Of a DNA stretch of 32,787 bases, positions 1 to 24,511 are shown in pieces (position 1 is the stretch's first letter; each line of letters begins with the position of its first letter). The notes beneath the pieces were generated by a model. It was not told the origin of the DNA, searched no databases, and saw only the letters and a list, made by a program, of their open reading frames with translations. Source of the stretch: a virus; the IMG/VR virus record IMGVR_UViG_3300035698_001483, positions 1-32,787 of that record; one strand, 5' to 3'. The translations under genes and the position numbers were made by a program.

Positions 1-993
1 ATCTGGAGTATTACAATAGTAGAAGTTCTTCAACCCGTACTTGTAGCCGTAAATCTGGTCTTTAATCAATGTACTAAGTGGAATGTTGCCGTCCTCGTGG
101 TGGGCATAGTTGTAGTAGAGGTTAGTACTCATGCTCATATCTATGAACTTTTGCATAACTGCCGCAATGTTCATCATCGCATAGTTGTCTCGCATTTCCC
201 AAGCCAACGTGTAGTAGTTCTTTCGGGTGTGATAGTTGGGGACCAACTGCTTGAGAACGCCGTTCTTAGCCTTCTTGTGGATCAGTAGGCTCCTGACAGG
301 CTCTCCGCCGTTTGTGCTGTTCTGGATGACGCTGGACGACTCACAGGGCATCTGAGCGGACAGGGTGGAATGCCGCAGGCCAAACTCCTTGACTCTCCCT
401 CTCAATTCCTCCCAATCCATGTTGTAGTTGGGCTTAACTAAATCATCCACTGACTTCTTATACCAATCCACTGGCAGTAGACCGTCCGCGTATTTAGTCT
501 CATTGAACTTGTCGCAGGGTCCAATCTCTTTAGCTAAGTCGCAAGAGGCACTAATTAGATGCCACTGAATCTGTTCCATTGTCTCGTGGATTAGCTCTAG
601 AGCCTCTTTGTCCTCGTACTTCAATTTGTTCTTAGCCAAGAATCCGGCTAGGTTAGTGATACCTATGCCAAGCGATCTGCGGTTCTTCGTAAAGGTTTGA
701 CCAGCTAAGACAGGATAGTCTTGGTAGTCAATGATCGCCTCAAGGGTTTTTACAGCGATTTTGCAGGCTGCTTCTATTTCCTCCTCGTTGTGTAGCTCCA
801 GAAGGTTGAGGGCAGATAGTAGGCAGATGCCGATCTCACCTTCTTCGTCGTCTATTGATTTGATGGGGTTGGTAGGGTGGATTATTTCCTGACAATTTGT
901 CACTAAGATGCCGTTGGCATAAAAGTTGTGATTATTTTCTACCGTAATATCAAAGACTGGTTCGGGCTTTGTTATTTTTTGTATTGTTAGCAT
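1..993 (-). CDS. nrdA: Ribonucleotide reductase class Ia large subunit, C-terminal half with split-intein C-fragment (partial)
   Basis: The frame opens at ATG 991-993 behind AAAGGATAACC and stays open to the window edge. Its first 33 residues are an intein C-fragment ending VENNHNFYANG...VTN. The extein that follows starts CQEIIHPTNP. In NrdA the motif SNLCxE carries the thiyl-radical Cys (E. coli C439) and Glu441, so CQE here is the catalytic Cys with its Glu. Further on are GEIGICLLSALNL (the second redox Cys, equivalent to C462), PCESSS and the near-terminal tyrosine pair FYYCNTPD. Only the extreme C-terminus should lie beyond the window. The protein must be joined in trans to the N-half (1709-3301) to give active NrdA, which reduces NDPs to dNDPs for phage DNA synthesis. 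The start overlaps the end of the endonuclease gene by 44 bases. Identity is very sure; splicing activity is inferred. The penultimate intein residue is Thr rather than the usual His. Confidence 0.95.
   Translation of the reverse strand, partial: MLTIQKITKPEPVFDITVENNHNFYANGILVTNCQEIIHPTNPIKSIDDEEGEIGICLLSALNLLELHNEEEIEAACKIAVKTLEAIIDYQDYPVLAGQTFTKNRRSLGIGITNLAGFLAKNKLKYEDKEALELIHETMEQIQWHLISASCDLAKEIGPCDKFNETKYADGLLPVDWYKKSVDDLVKPNYNMDWEELRGRVKEFGLRHSTLSAQMPCESSSVIQNSTNGGEPVRSLLIHKKAKNGVLKQLVPNYHTRKNYYTLAWEMRDNYAMMNIAAVMQKFIDMSMSTNLYYNYAHHEDGNIPLSTLIKDQIYGYKYGLKNFYYCNTPD
895..993 (-). other. Split intein C-fragment (IntC, 33 aa)
   Basis: The 33 codons contain block F (PVFDITVENNHNFYANG) and block G (ILVTN followed by Cys). 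The terminal Asn is present. The residue before it is Thr, whereas most inteins have His. The +1 residue is a Cys that is also the NrdA catalytic cysteine. With the 106-residue N-fragment the sizes match naturally split inteins of the 'fractured gene' type. Confidence 0.93.
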
Positions 994-1654
994 GGTTATC
1001 CTTTAATGTTTGACTAATTCGCGCGTTGGTTTCCGAGTTATTATATCTCTCCTCATACGTCTGATTGAATGAGAATTCGTCATAATAGATATCTAAACTA
1101 TCCAGTCGCAGTTTCAGTGCCTGCACAAAATTTTGATGACCACCTCCGAATCTGTACTTTGCGTAGCTCAGTGGCAACCCTATAGCTTTGGAATGCTCAC
1201 TCCACCTTGCCCTGATCAATCTATTTTTATTGGCTTTGAAATACCGGATTGCTTCTTCTAGAAGTTCGTCATTACTAATTCCAGAAAAGTTTGGGTTTTT
1301 CTCCCCACCTGTACGTTTGGCGATTTGTGCGGCCCACTTTTCGTACTTTGTTGGTGGAACAACCCATCCTCCGTCTCCTCCTGCCGCCATATTGTATCCG
1401 TCTGCTACCGTGTTTAATTCTTTGATGTATCTTTTTTCTGCTTCGGCAGCCTCCTCTCTGTCGCTAAACGTTCCTAAAGTTTCTATGGAACAATCTTTAA
1501 TGCCATACAGTCTTATCGCCCTACTTAGGTGATAATCTCCTCCACTGAACGCCACTTTGTAGTGGGCGGCGATTCTCTCTTGTACGGATTTTGATGTCAT
1601 TCCGACATAAGACTTGTTCGTAGTGTAAAAGGTAATTTTGTACACATAGTGCAT
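950..1654 (-). CDS. GIY-YIG homing endonuclease inserted between nrdA halves
   Basis: A 234-residue free-standing endonuclease. The N-terminus has the GIY-YIG signature in the form YVYKITF...SYVGMT, followed by the expected Arg (QERIAAH) and a Glu-rich helix, then DGYNMAAGGDGG, as in phage Seg/I-TevI-type enzymes. GEKNPNFSG near residue 120 resembles a NUMOD3 DNA-binding repeat. The rest is probably DNA-recognition sequence. The start is set by CGGAG 7-8 bases before ATG 1654. The gene lies between the two intein-nrdA halves, and its last codons contain the ribosome binding site and start of the C-half. Known fractured-gene loci carry such an endonuclease to drive homing into intein-free alleles. 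The target is presumably the uninterrupted nrdA active-site sequence, which is inference. Confidence 0.93.
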   Translation of the reverse strand: MHYVYKITFYTTNKSYVGMTSKSVQERIAAHYKVAFSGGDYHLSRAIRLYGIKDCSIETLGTFSDREEAAEAEKRYIKELNTVADGYNMAAGGDGGWVVPPTKYEKWAAQIAKRTGGEKNPNFSGISNDELLEEAIRYFKANKNRLIRARWSEHSKAIGLPLSYAKYRFGGGHQNFVQALKLRLDSLDIYYDEFSFNQTYEERYNNSETNARISQTLKDNHANNTKNNKARTSL

Positions 1655-1708
1655 GGGTAATCTCCGTATATTAGGTAGAGGTTATGGATCTACCTTTGTA
1701 TACTAGAA

Positions 1709-3301
1709 TTACGCATTAATTTGCAATTCGTCCGTCTCTAACAGGTCTTGCGCCATAATGTACCCCCTGTTAGTAGTGTATATTTTATGTTCTGGAGTAC
1801 AAGTAACACTCAATCCAGTGTCTTGATCTGTTATTTTCATAACGTATGCCTCTTGACTGACAAGGGCGGCTGCCGTGACCTTCTCGAACGAGTCTACCCC
1901 ATTGTCTACATTTTGGGACAAAATACTAACGTCTTTCCCTGCGGAGACTAAAGAAACCGCTTCTTCTAGGGGAATTGTCGCTAACATGTCGTTGACACTC
2001 ACCATAACAGACGAGTCGCCCGTTAAGCACAAATTGCTCATATAGACTGGGACGTTCCATGACCCATGCTCGTTGGCTGTGTCAATATTCATTGAGTAGA
2101 TTCGCCCCGTCTCTAGACGTTCTCTCGCAAAGATTTCAGCGAGCTTACGTGCGGGCATTTTCCGTTTGAACTTTAGTTCGGATTTCTCATACTTGAGGTA
2201 CAGCTTCTCGAACTTCTCGTTGTCCCCAAAGGCTTCGTACAGGCCCGGAGTTTCCGCTGGACTGAACAGGGTGATATCTTCGTTGGCAATTAGACGATCA
2301 TAGAACAGCTTACAAAACTGCACAGAGTAGTCCAACTTACGTACACGGTTGTCATCTGTACCGGCGTTGTTCTTCAATACAATAACATCATCAATTTCAA
2401 AATGCCAGAAGGGGATATGAACGGTTGCAGAACCACCACGCAGACCGTTCTGACTGGTTGACTTGACTGTGGACTCAAAGGTCTTGAGGTAGGGAATCAA
2501 TCCTGTATGAATTACTTCTCCACCACGGATGGATGAGTTGATGGGACGAATACGACCCATGTTCAGGCCGATGCCTGCTCTCCTTGCTGTGTAACGCCCG
2601 ACAGCGTGGACACTAGCAAAGATGGAATCCAAATTGTCGTCAACGTCAACGAGTACGCAACTGGAAAACTGCCTGATGTTTGTTCTGACACCAGCCATAA
2701 TGGGAGTGGGCAGATTGAGCTTGAAGGTAGAGTAGCAGTCGTATGCCGCTTTCACGTCGCTTGGTGTGTCAAACAGACACATGGCGATGCACATATAGGC
2801 AAACTGTGGAGTCTCGTAGATTTGCCCTGTGCTTCTGTTCTTGACTAGGTATTTGTCTACCATCTGCTGCAAGCCAGCATAGGTGAATATGTCGTCACGA
2901 TTGTGGTTGATGTATCCCTCAAACTTGAGGATATCTTCTTTGGTCCACTTATTGAGTAGGATGGGATCGTAGATGCCGTTGTCTACGTTCAACTCTAGGA
3001 ACATATCGAAGGCTCTTGGCTGTTCGGAACCCCACACTTCTTTCCGTAGTTGCATGTTAAGCAGGCGGGCGGCGACGTACTGATAGTTGGGGGCGGAGGT
3101 AGAGATCAAATCGTTGGCAGACTTGATAATGATCTTGTGGATCTCAGTACTTTTTACCCCGTCGTAGATTGACAGGTTTGCATTCATTTCAATGTCAGAA
3201 AATGAGACACCATTGATACCCTTCACGGCTTGTTCAACCACCTTATGAATCTTCTCTACTAGGTAATCCTCTTTGGTTCCATCTCTTTTCGTGACTTGCA
3301 T
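1709..3301 (-). CDS. nrdA: Ribonucleotide reductase class Ia large subunit, N-terminal half fused to split-intein N-fragment
   Basis: Of 530 residues, the first 424 are NrdA and the last 106 are intein. The N-terminus (VTKRDGTKEDYLVEKIHK) is an ATP-cone allosteric domain. The barrel domain follows, with RQFSSCVLVD (redox Cys equivalent to E. coli C225), GIGLNMGRIRP, and NGLRGGSATVHIPFWHFEID. NrdA sequence stops at YMSNL, and the next residue is intein Cys1 (CLTGDSSVMV). Intein block B is seen as TCTPEHKIYTT. The stop follows DELQINA with no C-terminal intein motifs, so the protein needs the 33-residue IntC at 895-993. The start has GGGGACAAAAAT upstream and lies about 30 bases from promoter 3332-3360. 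After splicing the extein reads YMSNL-CQEII. Confidence 0.96.
   Translation of the reverse strand: MQVTKRDGTKEDYLVEKIHKVVEQAVKGINGVSFSDIEMNANLSIYDGVKSTEIHKIIIKSANDLISTSAPNYQYVAARLLNMQLRKEVWGSEQPRAFDMFLELNVDNGIYDPILLNKWTKEDILKFEGYINHNRDDIFTYAGLQQMVDKYLVKNRSTGQIYETPQFAYMCIAMCLFDTPSDVKAAYDCYSTFKLNLPTPIMAGVRTNIRQFSSCVLVDVDDNLDSIFASVHAVGRYTARRAGIGLNMGRIRPINSSIRGGEVIHTGLIPYLKTFESTVKSTSQNGLRGGSATVHIPFWHFEIDDVIVLKNNAGTDDNRVRKLDYSVQFCKLFYDRLIANEDITLFSPAETPGLYEAFGDNEKFEKLYLKYEKSELKFKRKMPARKLAEIFARERLETGRIYSMNIDTANEHGSWNVPVYMSNLCLTGDSSVMVSVNDMLATIPLEEAVSLVSAGKDVSILSQNVDNGVDSFEKVTAAALVSQEAYVMKITDQDTGLSVTCTPEHKIYTTNRGYIMAQDLLETDELQINA
1712..2029 (-). other. Split intein N-fragment (IntN, 106 aa)
   Basis: Begins at Cys1 (codon 2027-2029) and runs to the stop. 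Block A is CLTGDSSVMV. Block B is VTCTPEHKIYTT with the TxxH residues that assist the N-S acyl shift. No endonuclease domain lies within the intein; the GIY-YIG gene follows separately. Confidence 0.93.
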
Positions 3302-3331
3302 ATTTTTGTCCCCTTTGTTTGGTTTTCTCTT

Positions 3332-3360
3332 ATTATACGGTATGAATCAACGATTGTCAA
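3332..3360 (-). promoter_or_regulatory. Sigma-70-type promoter of nrdA
   Basis: Read on the minus strand: TTGACA, 17-base spacer, TATAAT. The start of transcription should fall near 3325, leaving a leader of about 25 bases that holds the nrdA Shine-Dalgarno site. Confidence 0.85.
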
Positions 3361-3371
3361 CCCACAAAATC

Positions 3372-3405
3372 AAAAAATCCCCACGCCAGTGACGGCGTAA
3401 GGATT
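3372..3405 (-). terminator. Intrinsic terminator after the exported thioredoxin gene
   Basis: On the minus strand AATCC-TTACGCC and GGCGTGG-GGATT pair around a short loop (GTCACT) and are followed by six T. It closes the 6.9-3.5 kb unit just before the nrdA promoter. Confidence 0.85.
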
Positions 3406-3475
3406 GATGCTGTCCTGTTATGTGCGGTCTATACATACTAGTCTAGCTATGGGGATTGTGCAATCAATTTATCGT

Positions 3476-4084
3476 TTATTTCTTTAAATTTTCTTGCAGG
3501 ATTCGCAATAGTTGTGGAGCCGTTCTGGCTCCAGAGAAGCGAAAGATTGGAACACCGTCTTTTAGGATAAGTACGGTGGGATAGCTCGTCACTTTGTAGT
3601 AACGGAAGAAGTTTTTGTGGTTCGGGTTGTCTGCATCTAAGTAAACGACGGGCGAGTTAAACTCGACCAGTTTAGCTGCTACAGACTTGTCTAACCAAGC
3701 CTTCTTTAGTCTGCGGCATGGTTCGCACCATTCCGCCCCAAGGTGGTAAACTTGATACTTTGTTATTAGAGGTTTGTCAGCAGTTGCTTTTCTATAACCA
3801 TGAACATAATCATGCAACCAGAACATTTGATTACTCGTTAAAGTATTCAACAGGGAAGATGATATTGGGGAGTGTTCTCCCCTAGCTCCATTCTCCAAAT
3901 GCCATTTGATAGTCATGCCTCTGACACCGACTACTGGTTTGTAGTTTTGGATGTTAGGGACGTAGCTTAGTCCCAAACTATCCATTGCCGACGTTACTCT
4001 AGTATCTTGTCCGAGGGCCGCATCTTGTGCGGGGGCCATCACTATCATTGCTGCTAATACGAGTGCTATAAGTGCTTGTTTCAT
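3476..4084 (-). CDS. Exported thioredoxin-fold protein
   Basis: 202 residues. The N-terminus is a signal peptide (MKQALIALVLAAMIVMAPA, cleavage probably near AALG). The thioredoxin domain occupies the C-terminal half: GAEWCEPCRR gives the active-site Cys120-Cys123, VVYLDAD a core strand, and TSYPTVLIL the cis-Pro loop. The stretch between signal and domain (residues 27-110) is unrecognised. It should act outside the cytoplasm as a disulfide reductase or isomerase. The start is supported by GGGAGATCCCT. It is the last gene of a run holin-like, small, subtilase, exported protein, this gene, then a terminator. Phages usually carry cytoplasmic thioredoxins for ribonucleotide reductase; the signal peptide argues against that role despite nrdA next door. 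Confidence 0.88.
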   Translation of the reverse strand: MKQALIALVLAAMIVMAPAQDAALGQDTRVTSAMDSLGLSYVPNIQNYKPVVGVRGMTIKWHLENGARGEHSPISSSLLNTLTSNQMFWLHDYVHGYRKATADKPLITKYQVYHLGAEWCEPCRRLKKAWLDKSVAAKLVEFNSPVVYLDADNPNHKNFFRYYKVTSYPTVLILKDGVPIFRFSGARTAPQLLRILQENLKK

Positions 4085-4104: not shown

Positions 4105-4857
4105 TTACTCTTGTCTCAAGCCTCTAATCAAAGCCTCTAACCCCTTTTTGTAGTCGGCTGTATTTTTGGCTCGATCAAGATATTGTTCGGTATCTTTGAA
4201 TACTGAATTCCAATCGTGTTGTATCCTTCCCACGAAAGCGAAATTCCTAGCCGTCTTTGCCCGAGCAATGGCTGACTCTAACGTCAAGGATTCCATACCT
4301 TCCAGTTGAATCGTCAGATTGTCTGCCCACCGTTTAGAGTATGGACGATCTGATGCCACGATGCCGTTCCCTTTAACCCATTGATAGAAGTCGTCGAAAG
4401 TTTCCGCAGGAGGGTCGACAGGAGGATCTATAGGAGGGTCAACTGGTTCTCCGGGGAATTTAACCTCGATGAACTCCTGCTGCCAAAAGGGAGCTTCCTC
4501 AACTTGAGAAAGAACTTCGACAGTCCATTCTGTTCCGGGCTCCTCTAGCAACAGATACTTTCCCTCAGACATATATGTAAGGAACTGTGGAAACTGTGTA
4601 AATTTCCCCTTCTGGTATGCTCTGACGATGGGCTTCACATGAGTAGTTGAGACGACCGCAACGATCTTCTCGCCAACCTCTGACGACACATCTTCGATAA
4701 CGAAGTCACCAACGGTGATTTGCGTCCGCTGTTGTATCTTCGCCTTCTCAAAAGTAACTTCTGATTGGGCTTTTTGCCCCATCGCTGTTGAGATAGAGGC
4801 AAACATCAAACACATCGCCAATAGGGCAACTGTCATTTTGTTGTGTTGAGTTTTCAT
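4105..4857 (-). CDS. Exported protein with proline-rich linker, unknown function
   Basis: 250 residues beginning with a signal peptide (MTVALLAMCLMFASISTAMG after a short basic lead). The mature part has a beta-rich N-terminal region (residues 35-145), a linker of repeated PVDPPIDPP (about 147-158), and a helical C-terminal region ending LEALIRGLRQE. No family is recognised. The Pro-rich spacer resembles those joining domains in envelope-spanning or cell-surface proteins. The start overlaps the subtilase stop by one base (TAATG), so the two are translationally coupled. It lies between protease and exported thioredoxin, so all three probably act on the host envelope or the virion surface (inference). 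Confidence 0.8.
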   Translation of the reverse strand: MKTQHNKMTVALLAMCLMFASISTAMGQKAQSEVTFEKAKIQQRTQITVGDFVIEDVSSEVGEKIVAVVSTTHVKPIVRAYQKGKFTQFPQFLTYMSEGKYLLLEEPGTEWTVEVLSQVEEAPFWQQEFIEVKFPGEPVDPPIDPPVDPPAETFDDFYQWVKGNGIVASDRPYSKRWADNLTIQLEGMESLTLESAIARAKTARNFAFVGRIQHDWNSVFKDTEQYLDRAKNTADYKKGLEALIRGLRQE

Positions 4858-5795
4858 TACACGTACTCCGGTTCTTTAAGTAGAAGCCAATTTATAATCC
4901 TATCGTAGGCCAGTCTACCAAGACCAAACCTAGGGTCGCGACCAACCGCTCCTCCATCAATGAAGAAGTTTCCGCCAGCGTACCAATCTCTCCAGTTCTC
5001 AGACCCAACGATTTCGACGAGGCCGAGGCTTCTACGTTTCTGAATGACCAAACATTGAAAACCAGCCCTATGTGGGCAGGCCATCGAGGTTCCAGTCATC
5101 ACTCCGTAGCGATTTCGGGGTAGCGTAGACAGGATGTTCGATCCGGGCGATGCCGAATCAATCTCTCGTCCACCACTAGATGATGTTGCAATCTTCAAGT
5201 CTTGACGATAGTTCCCTTCACACCAGTGTAGAGGGTCTTTCGCTGGCCAGCCAATAGTATTTCTACCACTGCTGTAGCCTGAGTTGCCAGCCGCAGCGAC
5301 TAACAACGAAGTTCCCTTCGAATAGGCATATCTAGAAGCTACCGAATCTTGTTCTTGATGATCTCCACCACCCAGCGATTCAGAAATGACATCTGCTCCC
5401 GCATCAGCCGCCTCCATACGTCCATTGTTAATCCACGTCGTTGAGCCAGAGCCGTTGTCTCCCAAAACCTTGATGCAGATTAAGTCTGCGCCGGGAGCTA
5501 CTCCACCACCACCTCTACCAAGGGCGATTCCCGCACAGTGGTGTCCATGATCGTTTCTGTCGGCTTTGCCGTCTCTAGTTTGGTTTCCCTCATAGATGGC
5601 CTTAGGTAAGTCAGGGTGATCCGTCATCCCCATCGTGTCACAGATTGCCAATTTCACACCACGTCCGTCAATCCCCATTGCATGGAGAGCTTTTAGACGA
5701 GGACCAATATGCCAAAATTCCCTAAGGGCTAGAGACGAATAAACTTCTCCAACCATAAGGTCGTCCGGCAAATGAATGATTCTTTCTTTTGTCAT
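4857..5795 (-). CDS. Subtilisin-family serine protease (S8)
   Basis: 312 residues with a complete S8 catalytic set: Asp53 in KLAICDTM, His83 in NDHGHHCAG (the usual HGTH motif modified), oxyanion Asn171 in AAAGNSG, and Ser237 in GTSMACPH. The domain fills nearly the whole protein. There is no prodomain of usual length and no signal peptide, so the enzyme is made in the cytoplasm in what looks like active form. It stands six bases after a small gene and two genes after a holin-like protein, where an endolysin would normally be. It may replace or assist an endolysin, or process virion proteins. No peptidoglycan hydrolase is seen in this cluster. Confidence 0.93.
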   Translation of the reverse strand: MTKERIIHLPDDLMVGEVYSSLALREFWHIGPRLKALHAMGIDGRGVKLAICDTMGMTDHPDLPKAIYEGNQTRDGKADRNDHGHHCAGIALGRGGGGVAPGADLICIKVLGDNGSGSTTWINNGRMEAADAGADVISESLGGGDHQEQDSVASRYAYSKGTSLLVAAAGNSGYSSGRNTIGWPAKDPLHWCEGNYRQDLKIATSSSGGREIDSASPGSNILSTLPRNRYGVMTGTSMACPHRAGFQCLVIQKRRSLGLVEIVGSENWRDWYAGGNFFIDGGAVGRDPRFGLGRLAYDRIINWLLLKEPEYV

Positions 5796-5801
5796 GTCGA
5801 A

Positions 5802-6089
5802 TTATCCGTTCAAAAAGTACTTTGAGATCATGGTAAAAATACGCTCAAGAACAGTTAGGAACTGCTCCCAGTCAATATTATCCCAGTCAATAGCTTCTGA
5901 CTCGAACTCGTCTCTGAGAGTTTCCATCGCCTCAAGCTGAACTTCTCTCAGCCAGTCTGGACGGAAAAACGAACGCATACGAAGGCGGCGAAATTGCGAA
6001 GATGTGATTTGACCATTTCTGACGGCTTTATGTCCAGCGCTGATAAATGCTTCGCGGAACTTTGAATCTTTAACTTCTTGGGTTTCCAT
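5802..6089 (-). CDS. Small helical phage protein, unknown
   Basis: 95 residues starting METQEVKDSK at ATG 6089, chosen because AAAAGGGAGAATAAC precedes it and it follows the holin-like stop directly. A longer upstream reading would run through the holin-like gene in another frame. Central part is basic (RRLRMRSFFRPDW), the end acidic then hydrophobic (DWDNIDWEQFLTVLERIFTMISKYF). No family recognised. Position between holin-like gene and protease suggests a lysis or envelope role. Confidence 0.75.
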   Translation of the reverse strand: METQEVKDSKFREAFISAGHKAVRNGQITSSQFRRLRMRSFFRPDWLREVQLEAMETLRDEFESEAIDWDNIDWEQFLTVLERIFTMISKYFLNG

Positions 6090-9036: not shown

Positions 9037-10116
9037 TCATTCCTTTAGGTGTTCGAGAATAGAGTTTGCGGCATGATCCCAAGAGAACTTATTGGCTGTC
9101 TCCAGACCACGGTGGTTAAATTGTTCTGACTTGAGATTGGAGTGTATGAACGTCTGCATCGCAATACTAATGTCGAAGATTGCTTGGTACTCCAGTTTGG
9201 CCCAGTTTCCCTGACCAAAGAACCATTTGTTGTCTATCGCTGGCTCAATACCCTCTGGAGTAATCAAGCTACAGTTTTCCTCGTTGCAGAACTCTGTATG
9301 GGCTGAATAATTCGTTGCTATTACGGGCCTGCCTACAGCCATCATTTCTAGAAGCTCTAGGTTCCAGCCCTCTCCACGCGACGGAAACACCCCACAATCA
9401 ACTTGAGACATGATACTATACACTTGTTGTTGTGTCTCAGCCCTTGGAATTAACCGCACTTTAGGGTGCGAGTACAACGCTTCCCACTGTGCCTTTTCAG
9501 CCGGGGAGTTGAAGGGGTTGTCGCACATCATCCACAACTCAATGTCCTCAAAATGCAACAGCGTCCTCTTGAATGCCTCTATCAGAATGTCGTGACCCTT
9601 ACGAACCTCCCACTTGCCACAGTTGAAGAAAACGGTCTTGCCGTTCTTAGGTACTGCGGGAGTTGGCTTGAATATGCTGGTATCTACACCAAGAGGGACT
9701 ATACTAACCACCCTACCCTCTGGCCAGCAGCGGAACGCATCTATCTGACTATAGATCACATCCTTTGCCCACTGTGAGCATACCATAAGTTCGTCACAAG
9801 ACTCCAAGTGATGCTTCTCAAGGTCAGAGAAGGTGTCCAACTCAAAGATAGGAAACCCTATCATCTTTCCATTCCCAATACGCTCTGCCATTTGGTTCTG
9901 ATGCCAAATCTTAATGCAGGGAGCGTGCCTGTTGAACGTCTGACCCTTTACGATTCCAGCTTGCACCAGTGTCGCATCCTCTTGACTGGTCAGGTTTGGT
10001 TGCCCTATAGGGTGGAGGGCTACATTGGCCACTTTGGATAACGCCTTGAAGATGTTAAGTCCAGCGACTCCATACCCCAGAGGGTTAATTGGAGCCATTA
10101 GGTTAATGTCAATCAT
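9037..10116 (-). CDS. Glycosyltransferase, GT-B fold (GT4-like)
   Basis: 359 residues. N-terminal Rossmann half begins DINLMAPINPLGYGVAGLNIF with a glycine-rich loop. The C-terminal half has GKWEVRKGHDILIEAFKR and the donor-binding signature SRGEGWNLELLEMMAVGRPVIAT with the conserved E-x7-E Glu pair. It should transfer a sugar from a nucleotide donor; the acceptor is unknown. Phage enzymes of this type modify virion proteins, DNA bases or host surface glycans. The start overlaps the upstream stop by four bases (ATGA). Its place among presumed virion genes favours glycosylation of a structural protein (inference). Confidence 0.9.
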   Translation of the reverse strand: MIDINLMAPINPLGYGVAGLNIFKALSKVANVALHPIGQPNLTSQEDATLVQAGIVKGQTFNRHAPCIKIWHQNQMAERIGNGKMIGFPIFELDTFSDLEKHHLESCDELMVCSQWAKDVIYSQIDAFRCWPEGRVVSIVPLGVDTSIFKPTPAVPKNGKTVFFNCGKWEVRKGHDILIEAFKRTLLHFEDIELWMMCDNPFNSPAEKAQWEALYSHPKVRLIPRAETQQQVYSIMSQVDCGVFPSRGEGWNLELLEMMAVGRPVIATNYSAHTEFCNEENCSLITPEGIEPAIDNKWFFGQGNWAKLEYQAIFDISIAMQTFIHSNLKSEQFNHRGLETANKFSWDHAANSILEHLKE

Positions 10117-12304: not shown

Positions 12305-12377
12305 CAGATGGTGAAGGAATCGGACCCTCCCGCTGGGATTTGGAATCCCTGCCGCCAGCCTTGGGACATGACCACCT
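12305..12377 (-). tRNA. tRNA-Trp (CCA)
   Basis: Acceptor AGGTGGT pairs with ACCATCT (one G-T). Anticodon arm AGGGA-TTCCAAA-TCCCA reads anticodon CCA, with the first pair mismatched. T-arm GAGGG-TCCGATT-CCTTC has C instead of the usual T at position 55. The CCA end is not encoded. A run of nine T follows. The tRNA lies eight bases after the tmRNA coding piece. The D-stem is weak (TGTC with GGCG). Confidence 0.85.
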
Positions 12378-12384
12378 GTGAAAA

Positions 12385-12586
12385 TAGCGAATTGGATTAT
12401 AAGGCTCGCTACACCTCATGCAGCTTACGCTGCAAGTGCGAAACTTTCGTTTGCAATTACGTTTTAACAGATTTTTACTCTGCATGGAATCCACTTAAAT
12501 AGTGGATTCCATACAACTCGTAGCCCTTCTGTCAACTACGTGTCGCAGTTGTTGCTTCTTTTTACGTGTCGAAACCTTTCATCCCC
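12385..12586 (-). ncRNA. ssrA: Permuted tmRNA, coding piece
   Basis: The 5' end (12586) reads GGGGATG and then AAAGGTTTCGAC, the conserved tmRNA D-like loop. GGGGATG pairs over seven bases with CATCTCC of the acceptor piece at 12697-12703, with a G3-U70 pair, the alanine identity element. Helix P2 forms between 12561-12568 and 12725-12733 (one bulge) and continues as CAACAAC (12548-12554) with GTTGTTG (12740-12746). CGTAG...CTACG may form the first pseudoknot stem. A perfect hairpin of at least 12 bp follows at 12484-12512. The resume sequence CGTAATT-GCA opens the tag frame, whose stop lies in hairpin TGCAGC-GTAA-GCTGCA. The 3' end is approximate, placed after hairpin 12385-12411. tmRNA frees stalled ribosomes and tags the nascent protein. 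Confidence 0.92.
12425..12454 (-). other. tmRNA proteolysis-tag reading frame (ANESFALAA)
   Basis: Codons GCA AAC GAA AGT TTC GCA CTT GCA GCG TAA encode A-N-E-S-F-A-L-A-A. The ending ALAA is the degradation signal recognised by ClpXP-type proteases in many bacteria (E. coli tag ANDENYALAA). The stop codon lies in the loop of a 6-bp hairpin, as in other tmRNAs. Confidence 0.93.
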
Positions 12587-12692
12587 ATCATGGAGACACT
12601 CGTTCTTGCCTTATGGGTAGACCGCTAAGTCTGTTATTGGATAGCTCCTGCGTCCAGTTGGCGAGTATCCACAATTACCTTGAGTGCCTCCG

Positions 12693-12757
12693 TGGTGGAG
12701 ATGGCGGCATTCGAAAGCCGCTTCCACGATAAACTTCTACAACAACGTCTACAACAA
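12693..12757 (-). ncRNA. ssrA: Permuted tmRNA, acceptor piece
   Basis: Reads, in transcription order, the 3' strand of P2 (12740-12746 and 12725-12733), a T-arm with stem GCGGC/GCCGC, acceptor strand CATCTCC, discriminator A and an encoded CCA ending at 12693. The T-loop TTTCGAAT has eight bases, one more than usual. This piece precedes the coding piece by 106 bases, the order found in circularly permuted tmRNA genes, where the intervening segment is removed to leave two RNAs. The upstream limit is approximate; a small hairpin (TCCGC-TT-GCGGA) lies at about 12761-12772. Confidence 0.9.
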
Positions 12758-12775
12758 TAGTCCGCAAGCGGACAG

Positions 12776-12842
12776 TCTAGATAGAAGGATTCGAACCCTC
12801 GACATCTGCTTCATAGGTTTATTTCGCCCTGTTTAGCCCGAC
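12776..12842 (-). pseudogene. tRNA-like 3' half (tRNA relic)
   Basis: A canonical T-arm GAGGG-TTCGAAT-CCTTC is followed by TATCTAG and A, as in the 3' end of a tRNA. No matching acceptor 5' strand or convincing D-arm is found in the 100 bases before it, and the protein gene upstream ends at 12843. A poor anticodon-like arm (loop ATGAAGC, possible GAA) precedes it. Best read as a decayed or truncated tRNA, less likely a tRNA-like element. Confidence 0.5.
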
Positions 12843-13388
12843 TCATATATGTACTCTTGAAAGGATATAATCCGTTCCAATGTCTTTGTCACTCCACCAT
12901 ACAACTCGACTCTCAACAACAAAACTATGCTTGCTTCGTCGAACGATTGGTGTCTCAAGTGGAACGTCTTTGTATTCCCAGCGATACCCGATTTGGTGTC
13001 TCTTAGAGACCCAAGCAAAGGTATAAACAGGAATCTGACGGAACTTCACACGCTCTGTGCGAATTGTCCACTCTCGATAGTAAATCTCTCTGATTTCCTC
13101 AACGTTGTAAGGAATGTTGTGTTCCTTGAAGTATTCCTCCAAAGCCCACTGTTCTCTCCAAGTTGGGCTGTCAAAGACCAACTCGTTACGCTTACCACGT
13201 TTCCCAGTACGGTACTGAGTCTTGCGGTGATCTTTCCAGTTGCGGGAACTTCTTATTCGTATGTAGTCGTAGCAACTCGTTAGTTGGCTTGGGCGGCGTT
13301 TTCCACGAACGTATTCGCAGTCTTGGTTTGCCCGCATTTCAGAAGTGGTTCGCGGGTGGCGATACCAATGTCTGTATTGTCTTCGCAT
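12843..13388 (-). CDS. Conserved phage protein, basic and aromatic-rich
   Basis: 181 residues with TAAGGAGAAACCC before the ATG. The N-terminal part (YRHPRTTSEMRANQDCEYVRGKR then SCYDYIRIRSSRNWKDHRKTQY) looks like a common phage hypothetical family with the pattern RxPRTTxExRAN. The C-terminal half alternates aromatic and basic residues (REWTIRTERVKFRQIPVYTFAWV). No catalytic motif. It lies between tRNA-Thr and the tRNA relic/tmRNA in one transcript. Confidence 0.8.
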   Translation of the reverse strand: MRRQYRHWYRHPRTTSEMRANQDCEYVRGKRRPSQLTSCYDYIRIRSSRNWKDHRKTQYRTGKRGKRNELVFDSPTWREQWALEEYFKEHNIPYNVEEIREIYYREWTIRTERVKFRQIPVYTFAWVSKRHQIGYRWEYKDVPLETPIVRRSKHSFVVESRVVWWSDKDIGTDYILSRVHI

Positions 13389-14799: not shown

Positions 14800-14989
14800 C
14801 GGGTTCTCCTTCGTAAGGATAGTGTGAAGCTAATTCAGTTAAACATGTATCGCAAATGTCTACCCAACCGCTGGTTGGATTTATCTTGACTGTCCTGATC
14901 GTCTGGAACGAGTCACAATAGATACACTCTCCGATTGTGGGAGGGTATGGATCGCAATATTCGTCCTCATTCTTTGTTCTTTGTGGCAT
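14792..14989 (-). CDS. Small zinc-ribbon protein
   Basis: 65 residues from ATG 14989 (MPQRTKNEDEYCDPYPPT), chosen for GGAGGCCGGTC upstream. CIYC and CDTC, about 26 residues apart, form a probable zinc site. Overlaps the next gene by eight bases. Function unknown. Confidence 0.72.
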   Translation of the reverse strand: MPQRTKNEDEYCDPYPPTIGECIYCDSFQTIRTVKINPTSGWVDICDTCLTELASHYPYEGEPDE

Positions 14990-15473
14990 GACCGGCCTCC
15001 ACCATTTTCTCGGAAGTGTTGTCTGGAATACCATCGTCGTCCGTGTCTTTATAAATATACGCCAAAACTCTCCCAAAAGTGAGGGAATCCTGTAATTTGT
15101 TCGACATTGGTATGTCTACGAGTACAATATCTCCCTCTTTAAGCATTGATTGTAGGTAAGCCTTAGCTTCCAACCCTCGTTTTTTCTCCTCTTTGTCCCT
15201 TGTTCTCACCTCTGCCGCCCAACAATCCAGCATACGAACGCGGATCTCTTTGGTTAGTTCGAGTACGACAGTATCACCATCGTAGACGCTTTTTACCCTA
15301 GCGGACGTTACCATTCGCTCTTGCGGAATCTCCATTGGTTCTGTGACCATATTAGTCTCAACCTGACGTTCCACCAACGATGGGTCGAGGTTGTGAATTA
15401 TCGTGGAGACAATCATACCAAGAATGAGGGTAATTATCATACAGCCAATCGGCGGGTGGTATGAATCATTCAT
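14967..15473 (-). CDS. Membrane-anchored staphylococcal-nuclease-like protein
   Basis: 168 residues from ATG 15473. Residues about 9-28 are a membrane segment (IGCMIITLILGMIVSTIIH). The SNase fold follows: ARVKSVYDGDTVVLEL, IRVRMLDCWAAEVR (Arg80, Asp83 and Glu88 in the places of nuclease R35, D40 and E43), and LTFGRVLAYIY (Arg in the place of R87). It ends with a Ca-loop-like DTDDDGIPD. With one N-terminal membrane span the domain probably faces the periplasm or the inner face of the membrane, where it could degrade host or competing phage DNA. A long-start reading from 15626 overlaps the upstream gene and is rejected. Confidence 0.83.
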   Translation of the reverse strand: MNDSYHPPIGCMIITLILGMIVSTIIHNLDPSLVERQVETNMVTEPMEIPQERMVTSARVKSVYDGDTVVLELTKEIRVRMLDCWAAEVRTRDKEEKKRGLEAKAYLQSMLKEGDIVLVDIPMSNKLQDSLTFGRVLAYIYKDTDDDGIPDNTSEKMVEAGHATKNKE

Positions 15474-15777
15474 ATTTATTTCCCACCACTTCTGAGTCTC
15501 TCTGCTCACTAAATGTCCTATAACCGGACCACTCTCCCCGATCATCGTCCCACTCGACCTCAAACGTATCAGGTGCTTCAAAGGTGAAATGTTGGATAAT
15601 GTCGCCCTCATAAATGTCTCGACCATTCTTATCGGTGATCCCTACGAATTGCTGGATGACATAATCATAATCGCCGTTGTTGTGGCACATATTTTCTTCG
15701 AACCAATATAGGTCGTCAAAGATTTCCATTTCTTTTGTACGTGTATTCCATGCTCGAAACTTAATTTTCCTACTCAT
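15466..15777 (-). CDS. YopX-family protein A
   Basis: 103 residues with the YopX pattern: IKFRAWNTRTKEM at the start, QFVGITDKNGRDIYEGDII in the middle, VEWDDDRGEW and VVGNKYE at the end. YopX proteins are common in phages; their molecular role is not established. It follows a second YopX gene with a four-base overlap. Confidence 0.88.
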   Translation of the reverse strand: MSRKIKFRAWNTRTKEMEIFDDLYWFEENMCHNNGDYDYVIQQFVGITDKNGRDIYEGDIIQHFTFEAPDTFEVEWDDDRGEWSGYRTFSEQRDSEVVGNKYE

Positions 15778-23614: not shown

Positions 23615-23740
23615 TTATTCAAGTTTCCCACTACCCTTACAGAAGCAGCAAACAAATTCCTCCAATTTACCTTTACCTCGACACATGTTTGCCGTCTTGT
23701 AGCGGTCCACGCAGGACATTCTATGCTTCTTAGTATTCAT
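23615..23740 (-). CDS. Small Cys-rich protein, 41 aa
   Basis: MNTKKHRMSCVDRYKTAN then MCRGKGKLEEFVCCFCKGSG KLE. The pairs MCRGKG and CFCKGSG are a DnaJ-type CxGxG-like zinc motif. The start overlaps the HNH stop by four bases (ATGA). Function unknown. Confidence 0.65.
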   Translation of the reverse strand: MNTKKHRMSCVDRYKTANMCRGKGKLEEFVCCFCKGSGKLE

Positions 23741-24441
23741 TTACCGTCACTAAGTTTTAGGTGGTTGGCTATTAACTTTACGTAATGAAGAAATTCGCCC
23801 TCGCTATACTCTCGCTTCATCTTGTTGACCGTTTTATGTACCCACTGTACATTACCTTTGACGTATCCTTTGTCATTATCTATCCTGTCGAGCGATGCTG
23901 TTTGTTCTGTTTTGTATTTTGTTTTCGTTGTTTGGTAACTTCTTGCGAAGAAAAGTTCTTCACCAGAAAGGGAGCAACATCTATTTTGTTTAAGGAACAA
24001 GCCCCATAGATATTCTTTGGTTATGTCAAATTTGTATCCTCGAACTTTAGCTCCGGTTCTGATAGAGGAAAAATACGATCCACTCATTTCACCAACACCG
24101 TTCCAAGAATAATGTTCAAGACAGTTTCCGCAAGACTTTATCTCACCTCGCCTCAAACATGGGCTTTTTACATTATGTAAGTTTCCACAAGAGCATTTAC
24201 ACTCCCACATAGCACAATCACCATCGCCCTTCAATTGGCTCATAACTTCCAAGTCGCCAAAAACCTTTCCCGTTAGATCAATAGTGTTGTGGCGACCACC
24301 TCGCGGCTTAACTGGTAGGTCGTGCTTTCTCAACCAATACCAAACCTGACTGTCGCTTTTACCCACTTCTTGAGCAATATCTTTCGCTGTTCGATTTTTA
24401 ACTACGTACTCTCTATACAAAAACTGTCTGTCTGTGAGCAT
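23737..24441 (-). CDS. HNH homing endonuclease with N-terminal helix-turn-helix
   Basis: 234 residues from ATG 24441 (MLTDRQFLYREYV), set by AGGAGGCACTTCA. Residues about 12-40 form a helix-turn-helix (RTAKDIAQEVGKSDSQVWYW). A zinc module follows (WECKCSCGN...KSCGNC). The HNH-type catalytic end is SLDRIDNDKGYVKGNVQWV. This matches free-standing phage homing endonucleases, which cut a DNA lacking the insertion and copy themselves in. It is inserted between DNA ligase and a run of small genes. Complete and probably functional. Confidence 0.9.
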   Translation of the reverse strand: MLTDRQFLYREYVVKNRTAKDIAQEVGKSDSQVWYWLRKHDLPVKPRGGRHNTIDLTGKVFGDLEVMSQLKGDGDCAMWECKCSCGNLHNVKSPCLRRGEIKSCGNCLEHYSWNGVGEMSGSYFSSIRTGAKVRGYKFDITKEYLWGLFLKQNRCCSLSGEELFFARSYQTTKTKYKTEQTASLDRIDNDKGYVKGNVQWVHKTVNKMKREYSEGEFLHYVKLIANHLKLSDGK

Positions 24442-24511
24442 TGAAGTGCCTCCTGTGTGTAAAACCATGATTACCTATAGTCTTATACACAATTTACACT
24501 CACACCCACCG

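Follow-up and report, generated by a model that had tools for sequence, protein, structure and literature searches.

A permuted tmRNA gene from a T4-like phage and its phage relatives in both gene orders

Anatomy of the permuted gene

The DNA analysed here, referred to as the window, is an IMG/VR virus record of 32,787 bases (IMGVR_UViG_3300035698_001483), a fragment of a T4-like phage, which carries T4-like genes for RIIA, ribonucleotide reductase, a clamp-loader-like ATPase, DNA ligase, SSB and a sigma-like factor. ARAGORN calls a permuted tmRNA with the tag ANESFALAA, and the gene occupies 12385–12757 on the minus strand, the strand being a point on which the first-pass annotation was silent; tmRNA is the RNA that frees stuck ribosomes. 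The Rfam permuted models, which that annotation had proposed running, gave a match to RF04321 (tmRNA_permuted) over 12756–12425 with 78.6 bits and an E value of 1.1e-13 against a cut-off of 47 bits, while the second match, to the betaproteobacterial permuted tmRNA RF01850, reached 60.5 bits and stayed under its cut-off of 84; a genuine RF01850 member, L348, scores 251.5 bits. Together with the T4-like gene content, the ARAGORN call and the RF04321 score confirm, at the level of sequence, the earlier claim of a phage-encoded, circularly permuted tmRNA gene, from which two mature pieces are predicted.

Read along the minus strand, the gene is preceded by a small hairpin, GTCCGCTTGCGGAC, at 12760–12773, just upstream of P2, which has a counterpart at the equal position in L210, L214 and L216. 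The acceptor piece, the upstream one, starts with the 3′-side strand of an extended P2 helix (12737–12757), followed by the T-arm (12704–12721), whose 5-bp stem GCGGC/GCCGC encloses the 8-nt loop UUUCGAAU, and by the acceptor 3′ strand CATCTCC (12703–12697), the discriminator A (A73, 12696) and an encoded CCA (12695–12693). An intervening segment of 106 nt (12587–12692) comes next and is presumably cut out; beyond it the tag-coding piece begins with the acceptor 5′ strand GGGGATG (12580–12586) and continues with the conserved D-loop-like tmRNA motif GGTTTCGAC (12568–12576), the 5′-side strand of P2 (12539–12566), the pseudoknot PK1 (12464–12540), the tag frame ANESFALAA with its stop codon TAA (12425–12454) and, at the 3′ end, a PK2-like stem (12385–12412) with the motif CCTTATAATCCAA, to be compared with CCTTGTTACCCAA in the relatives, this terminal stem motif being common to the family described below. 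The acceptor half lies upstream of the 5′ half, GGGGATG and CATCTCC form seven of seven pairs, among them the alanine identity pair G3–U70, and the tag ends in the protease-recognised LAA. The 106 nt between CCA and GGGGATG, the seven acceptor pairs, G3–U70 and P2 had all been described in the first-pass annotation, and this anatomy holds to the base.

The P2 helix that joins the two pieces has a duplex energy of −31.6 kcal/mol against a shuffle mean of −20.6 kcal/mol, and 2 of 300 shuffles were as good, so the shuffle comparison that had been suggested for P2 also came out in its favour. The fold of the acceptor-plus-intervening stretch (12580–12732) beats all 200 shuffles (z −3.75), and that of the whole 373-nt stretch all 100 (z −5.7). 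Within the intervening segment, a 10-bp stem, GGAGGCACTC/GAGTGTCTCC, is found near the ends, and the segment alone gives z −2.27. This stem, the PK2-like end and PK1 with its inserted hairpin are features beyond the earlier description. A promoter scan found no sigma-70-like promoter near the gene on the tmRNA strand.

PK1 consists of stem 1, CGTAG/CTACG, and stem 2, TTGACAG/CTGTTAA, and a hairpin with a 16-bp stem (12481–12515) is inserted in its loop 3, so that the connector measures 47 nt in the window against 6–7 nt in the relatives. The window PK1 is not significant when taken alone: since a long insert was permitted in the search, 4 of 60 shuffles did equally well. It was found, however, that PK1 occurs in 25 of 26 family members, 24 besides the window, at nearly the same position and with the same topology, and that base pairs differ in both stems, which is strong comparative support for regarding the window PK1 as real. 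The inserted hairpin has no other exact copy in viral contigs and, elsewhere in the window, only chance matches.

The 8-nt T-loop, earlier pointed out as an oddity, is confirmed as GCGGC-UUUCGAAU-GCCGC; it is not canonical, and relatives show 7-nt, 6-nt or non-TTC loops, so that 8 nt is seen only in the window among the sequences compared. Loop length and PK1 hairpin are both private to the window in this comparison and may be read as damage that is no longer selected against in a decaying copy, functional in an ancestor. This reading appears improbable, since no break is seen in the acceptor helix, CCA, G3–U70, P2, the resume frame, the LAA-ending tag or the PK2-like end, and PK1 can still form both of its stems around the insert. 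Moreover, family members with odd T-loops, of 6 nt in G029, L040 and L409, GGCAGTA in G006 and GGCAGTA-like in G007, keep intact tags.

The phage family and its two gene orders

Phages related to that of the window by RIIA share 44–77% identity over the matched stretches, and whole-record searches of these relatives found permuted tmRNAs over the cut-off in 9 of 21 records, a count that takes in G021, added for its identical tag. A pattern of P2 strand and T-arm led to 34 contigs, all but one of which (L211) look like tmRNA genes on inspection, and 18 further records score over the permuted cut-off; more than 20 related phage contigs carry permuted genes. P2, PK1 and the tag type are conserved in the related phages, and the window bears the family signature, namely a PK1 of the family type 46–48 nt from the 5′ end and a related P2 strand, TGTAGACGTTGTT. 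In many family copies, CCA is not encoded. The length found most often for the intervening segment is 13 nt. Among isolate phages searched by DNA for direct relatives, only tRNA-like stretches matched.

Several loci show further peculiarities. In L214, a 49-nt repeat in two copies (1754–1865) lies inside the intervening segment of the permuted tmRNA; in L129 (15518–15942), the intervening segment holds a T-arm-like GAGGTTCAAATCCTC, then CTAGATG and, further on, CATCTAG, possibly a nested tRNA-like fragment; and in L232 (1171–1620), five structured-looking repeats with an alternating spacing of about 76 and 95 nt, for which no Rfam match was found, directly follow a standard phage tmRNA.

Standard-order homologues over the RF00023 cut-off were found in G002, G003, G008, G024, G033, G041, G042 and L410, that is, in 8 contigs from several metagenomes with 5 distinct sequences. 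Standard and permuted phage genes match over both pieces, at up to 75% over 154–157 nt and 90% over 63 nt, and G042 and G009 give two blastn matches in swapped order (E 5e-23 and 3e-12). A dCMP deaminase gene directly follows the tmRNA in G003, which has the standard order, and in G007, G009 and G038, which have the permuted one. The RIIA of G003 is 94% identical to that of G036, a phage with the permuted form, and lies inside the permuted clade of the RIIA tree, and yet the tmRNA of G003 is standard. An in-place reversal in G003 was considered and judged less likely than a swap, because its tmRNA groups with that of G024 (95/94 in one tree, 98/95 in another) though the RIIA of G024 is very distant, and because the tRNA-Glu/tRNA-Ile site, where G001 has its permuted gene, is without that gene in G003. 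Alleles of either order thus seem to have been exchanged among phages. Since both orders occur in the family, gene order would have changed at least once within it, provided that the family is one group.

The evidence on this proviso comes from short RNA alignments, and several of the records are fragments. The best tree sets the phage family, as a single group, apart from the permuted genes of alphaproteobacteria, betaproteobacteria and the cyanobacterial type and from standard genes of the gammaproteobacterial type, with weak support (73/26), and 3 of the 4 phage standard genes fall inside the phage permuted group. The window groups with G030 at 92/84 in one tree and lies on the family's side, unresolved, in another. 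None of three hypotheses is rejected: that every permuted form goes back to one origin (AU p 0.39), that the phage family and the bacterial standard genes form a group (p 0.48), and that the permuted forms of the phages arose once (p 0.25). The p value of 0.39 and the weak grouping of the family, as well as the rank of RF01850 as the window's second match, would agree with a simple capture of the permuted gene from a betaproteobacterial-type host lineage, in which case the standard genes of related phages would be unrelated captures from other hosts. We consider such a capture rather unlikely: standard and permuted phage genes match over both pieces at the identities given above and share the PK1 type, the tag type and in places a neighbouring gene; most of the standard ones lie within the permuted group of the tree; and a bacterial tmRNA with the tag ANESFALAA was not found in 84,980 species genomes.

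Phage-borne tmRNAs of two pieces were already known. A 2022 survey covered 402 phages with tmRNA and 133 distinct structures, 53 of them predicted to be two-piece, and a two-piece tmRNA was described in the isolated phage Melnitz (PMC9004378); another source lists 79 phage tmRNAs and, for bacteria, describes permuted genes from three main clades (PMC11915505), and tmRNA and SmpB have been reported in huge phages (PMC7162821). The earlier remark that a phage copy is unusual was therefore too strong, given the 53 of 133 structures in that survey and the 39 of 99 ARAGORN tmRNA calls that were permuted in a set of loci examined here, with the window counted twice. A mixed-order family and an HNH-bearing intervening segment, the latter treated below, were not found described. 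According to reviews and a database paper, permuted tmRNA occurs in three main bacterial lineages plus mitochondria (including PMC11915505). Elsewhere, gene order is known to differ only when distant groups are compared; among the relatives of the window, by contrast, some have the permuted and some the standard order, in part at a shared locus, which makes the switch directly testable.

Like Melnitz and the phages of the survey, the window has a phage-borne, circularly permuted, tag-coding tmRNA, predicted to be two-piece, with T4-like gene content around it. The ssrA of Melnitz, however, has its relatives among the permuted tmRNAs of alphaproteobacteria, with which it groups, and shows linkage to a glutamine riboswitch (PMC9004378), whereas the window family has its own P2/PK1 signature, stands apart from the alphaproteobacterial samples in the tree and includes standard-order members. 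With betaproteobacterial permuted tmRNA (RF01850) the window shares the gene order, the type of acceptor helix and a CCTT-A-T-CC-AA motif near the 3′ end, but it differs in its score (60.5 bits, under 84), in PK1 and P2 and in the inserted hairpin. The phage family resembles the gammaproteobacterial standard tmRNA (RF00023, the E. coli ssrA type) in the motif AAGCATGTAG...GGACGCGGGTTC and in the PK1 layout; gene order differs, and the permuted phage genes end after the PK2-like stem.

HNH genes within and beside tmRNA genes

In three permuted genes, an HNH open reading frame fills the intervening segment: L215 (G029) at 4133–4813, L217 (G031, reverse complement) at 9371–10063 and L409 at 2879–3543. 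In L215 and L217, the HNH frame terminates within the 5′ acceptor strand or immediately beyond it. The HNH label rests on relatives annotated as endonuclease and on the sequence; the proteins had no match in Pfam. The other three full-length HNH relatives in IMG/VR (61, 40 and 39% identity) are all at tmRNA genes, in L409, L410 and L411, and in L410 and L411 the HNH gene directly follows the 3′ end of standard tmRNA genes that score 89.3 and 151.9 bits. HNH proteins of the permuted genes group together (91/95). On a plain reading of these arrangements, an endonuclease gene has settled at the tmRNA 3′ end whatever the gene order; no earlier report of an HNH gene at a tmRNA was found in the open-licence literature. 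The intervening segment of the window is 106 nt long and carries no HNH gene.

These positions suggest, tentatively, how the order may have changed. T4-like phages may have permuted their tmRNA independently of alphaproteobacteria, betaproteobacteria and cyanobacteria, with the involvement of an HNH gene lodged behind the tmRNA at its 3′ end: a tandem duplication of the tmRNA-HNH unit followed by loss of the outer halves would give 3′ piece, HNH and 5′ piece, the exact order found in L215, L217 and L409. Under this duplication, L410 and L411 would have kept the unpermuted tmRNA-HNH order, and the window would be a descendant without the HNH gene. We regard this scenario as a doubtful but specific possibility; the position of the HNH gene suggests a concrete agent for the order switch. 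The three permuted genes also show that, like an intron, an intervening segment can harbour a protein-coding gene.

The situation resembles that of free-standing HNH homing endonucleases beside their targets (intronless homing), in that several phages have a putative endonuclease gene of the HNH type at a single site in a conserved RNA gene. It differs in that the spot is the tmRNA 3′ end and in that, in the permuted genes, the endonuclease gene itself is the intervening segment.

Past the 3′ end, L215 and L409 have second acceptor-like motifs (CATCTCCA), perhaps displaced gene ends. An HNH-like open reading frame at 23737–24468 (minus strand) of the window shares 34% identity over 105 residues with one of the HNH proteins linked to tmRNA. 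The crAss-like phages L485, L486 and L487 also encode relatives of these tmRNA-linked proteins, and no tmRNA was found beside them; in L486 and L487, two of these three loci, group I introns lie near the HNH relatives on the opposite strand.

Proposed function, tag and other elements of the window

The reading that we favour, with a probability of about 85%, is that the window encodes a two-piece tmRNA that acts in the ordinary way with host SmpB, in a phage lineage in which gene order has switched at least once. Host enzymes of tRNA processing would cut a single transcript on both sides of the 106-nt intervening segment. The two products, an acceptor piece with P2 strand, T-arm and CCA and a tag-coding piece, would stay joined through the acceptor helix and P2. 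The RNA would be charged with alanine through the G3–U70 pair, bound by host SmpB and admitted to stalled ribosomes, where ANESFALAA would be added and the ribosomes released; translation would thereby be sustained during infection, and the tagged product would pass to host proteases. Processing, charging, SmpB use and tagging are inferred from the tmRNA family, and the benefit to the phage is a presumed one. If so, a widespread, host-SmpB-dependent rescue RNA, with tags differing from phage to phage, would be added to phage biology.

No SmpB gene was found in 36 phage records, several of which are fragments. The lack of an own SmpB in the phages examined would also suit a decoy, a phage RNA that competes for SmpB or ribosomes and so weakens host trans-translation; the precedent is the tag-less tRNA-like RNA of mycobacteriophage DS6A, a type of RNA reported to inhibit tmRNA (PMC4131195; PMC11915505). 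A decoy needs no tag, however, and all through the family a tag frame has been retained whose end is of the protease type (AKPSFALAA, GVENYAMAA, AEPCLALAA, VEENFALAA, ANESLALAA and others, ending in LAA, MAA, IAA or VAA). Because the tag is kept, the decoy role fits less well, and we hold it to be highly improbable.

The suggestion in the first-pass annotation that the tag may reveal the host lineage was not borne out. The coding pattern of ANESFALAA has six matches in the 84,980 species genomes, none of which is a tmRNA by ARAGORN, and the assignment of a host from the tag was dropped. Beyond these genomes, the pattern occurs in one other phage contig, there inside a permuted tmRNA. This contig, L141, has the identical tag in a permuted tmRNA at 5561–5804 (102.2 bits), followed by an apparent nuclease-like open reading frame; the window has an SNase-like open reading frame at 14967–15626, just under the Pfam cut-off.

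Elsewhere in the window, the NrdA gene (1–3301, minus strand) is split. The open reading frame at 1709–3301 ends in the N-terminal part of an intein and is followed by a GIY-YIG endonuclease frame at 950–1654 (PF01541, E 1.6e-8), after which a further frame, opening with an intein C-terminus (VFDITVENNHNFYANGILVTN, ahead of CQEIIHP), continues past the edge of the contig. The arrangement suggests an intein that is naturally split, the break being occupied by a homing endonuclease. On either side of the tmRNA gene, tRNA-like stretches are found on the minus strand. Directly downstream, 12305–12377 is cloverleaf-like with a CCA anticodon loop (tRNA-Trp-like), gives no ARAGORN call and folds no better than shuffles; upstream, 12778–12850 contains a T-arm-like GAGGGTTCGAATCCTTC without a cloverleaf and is possibly a tRNA remnant.
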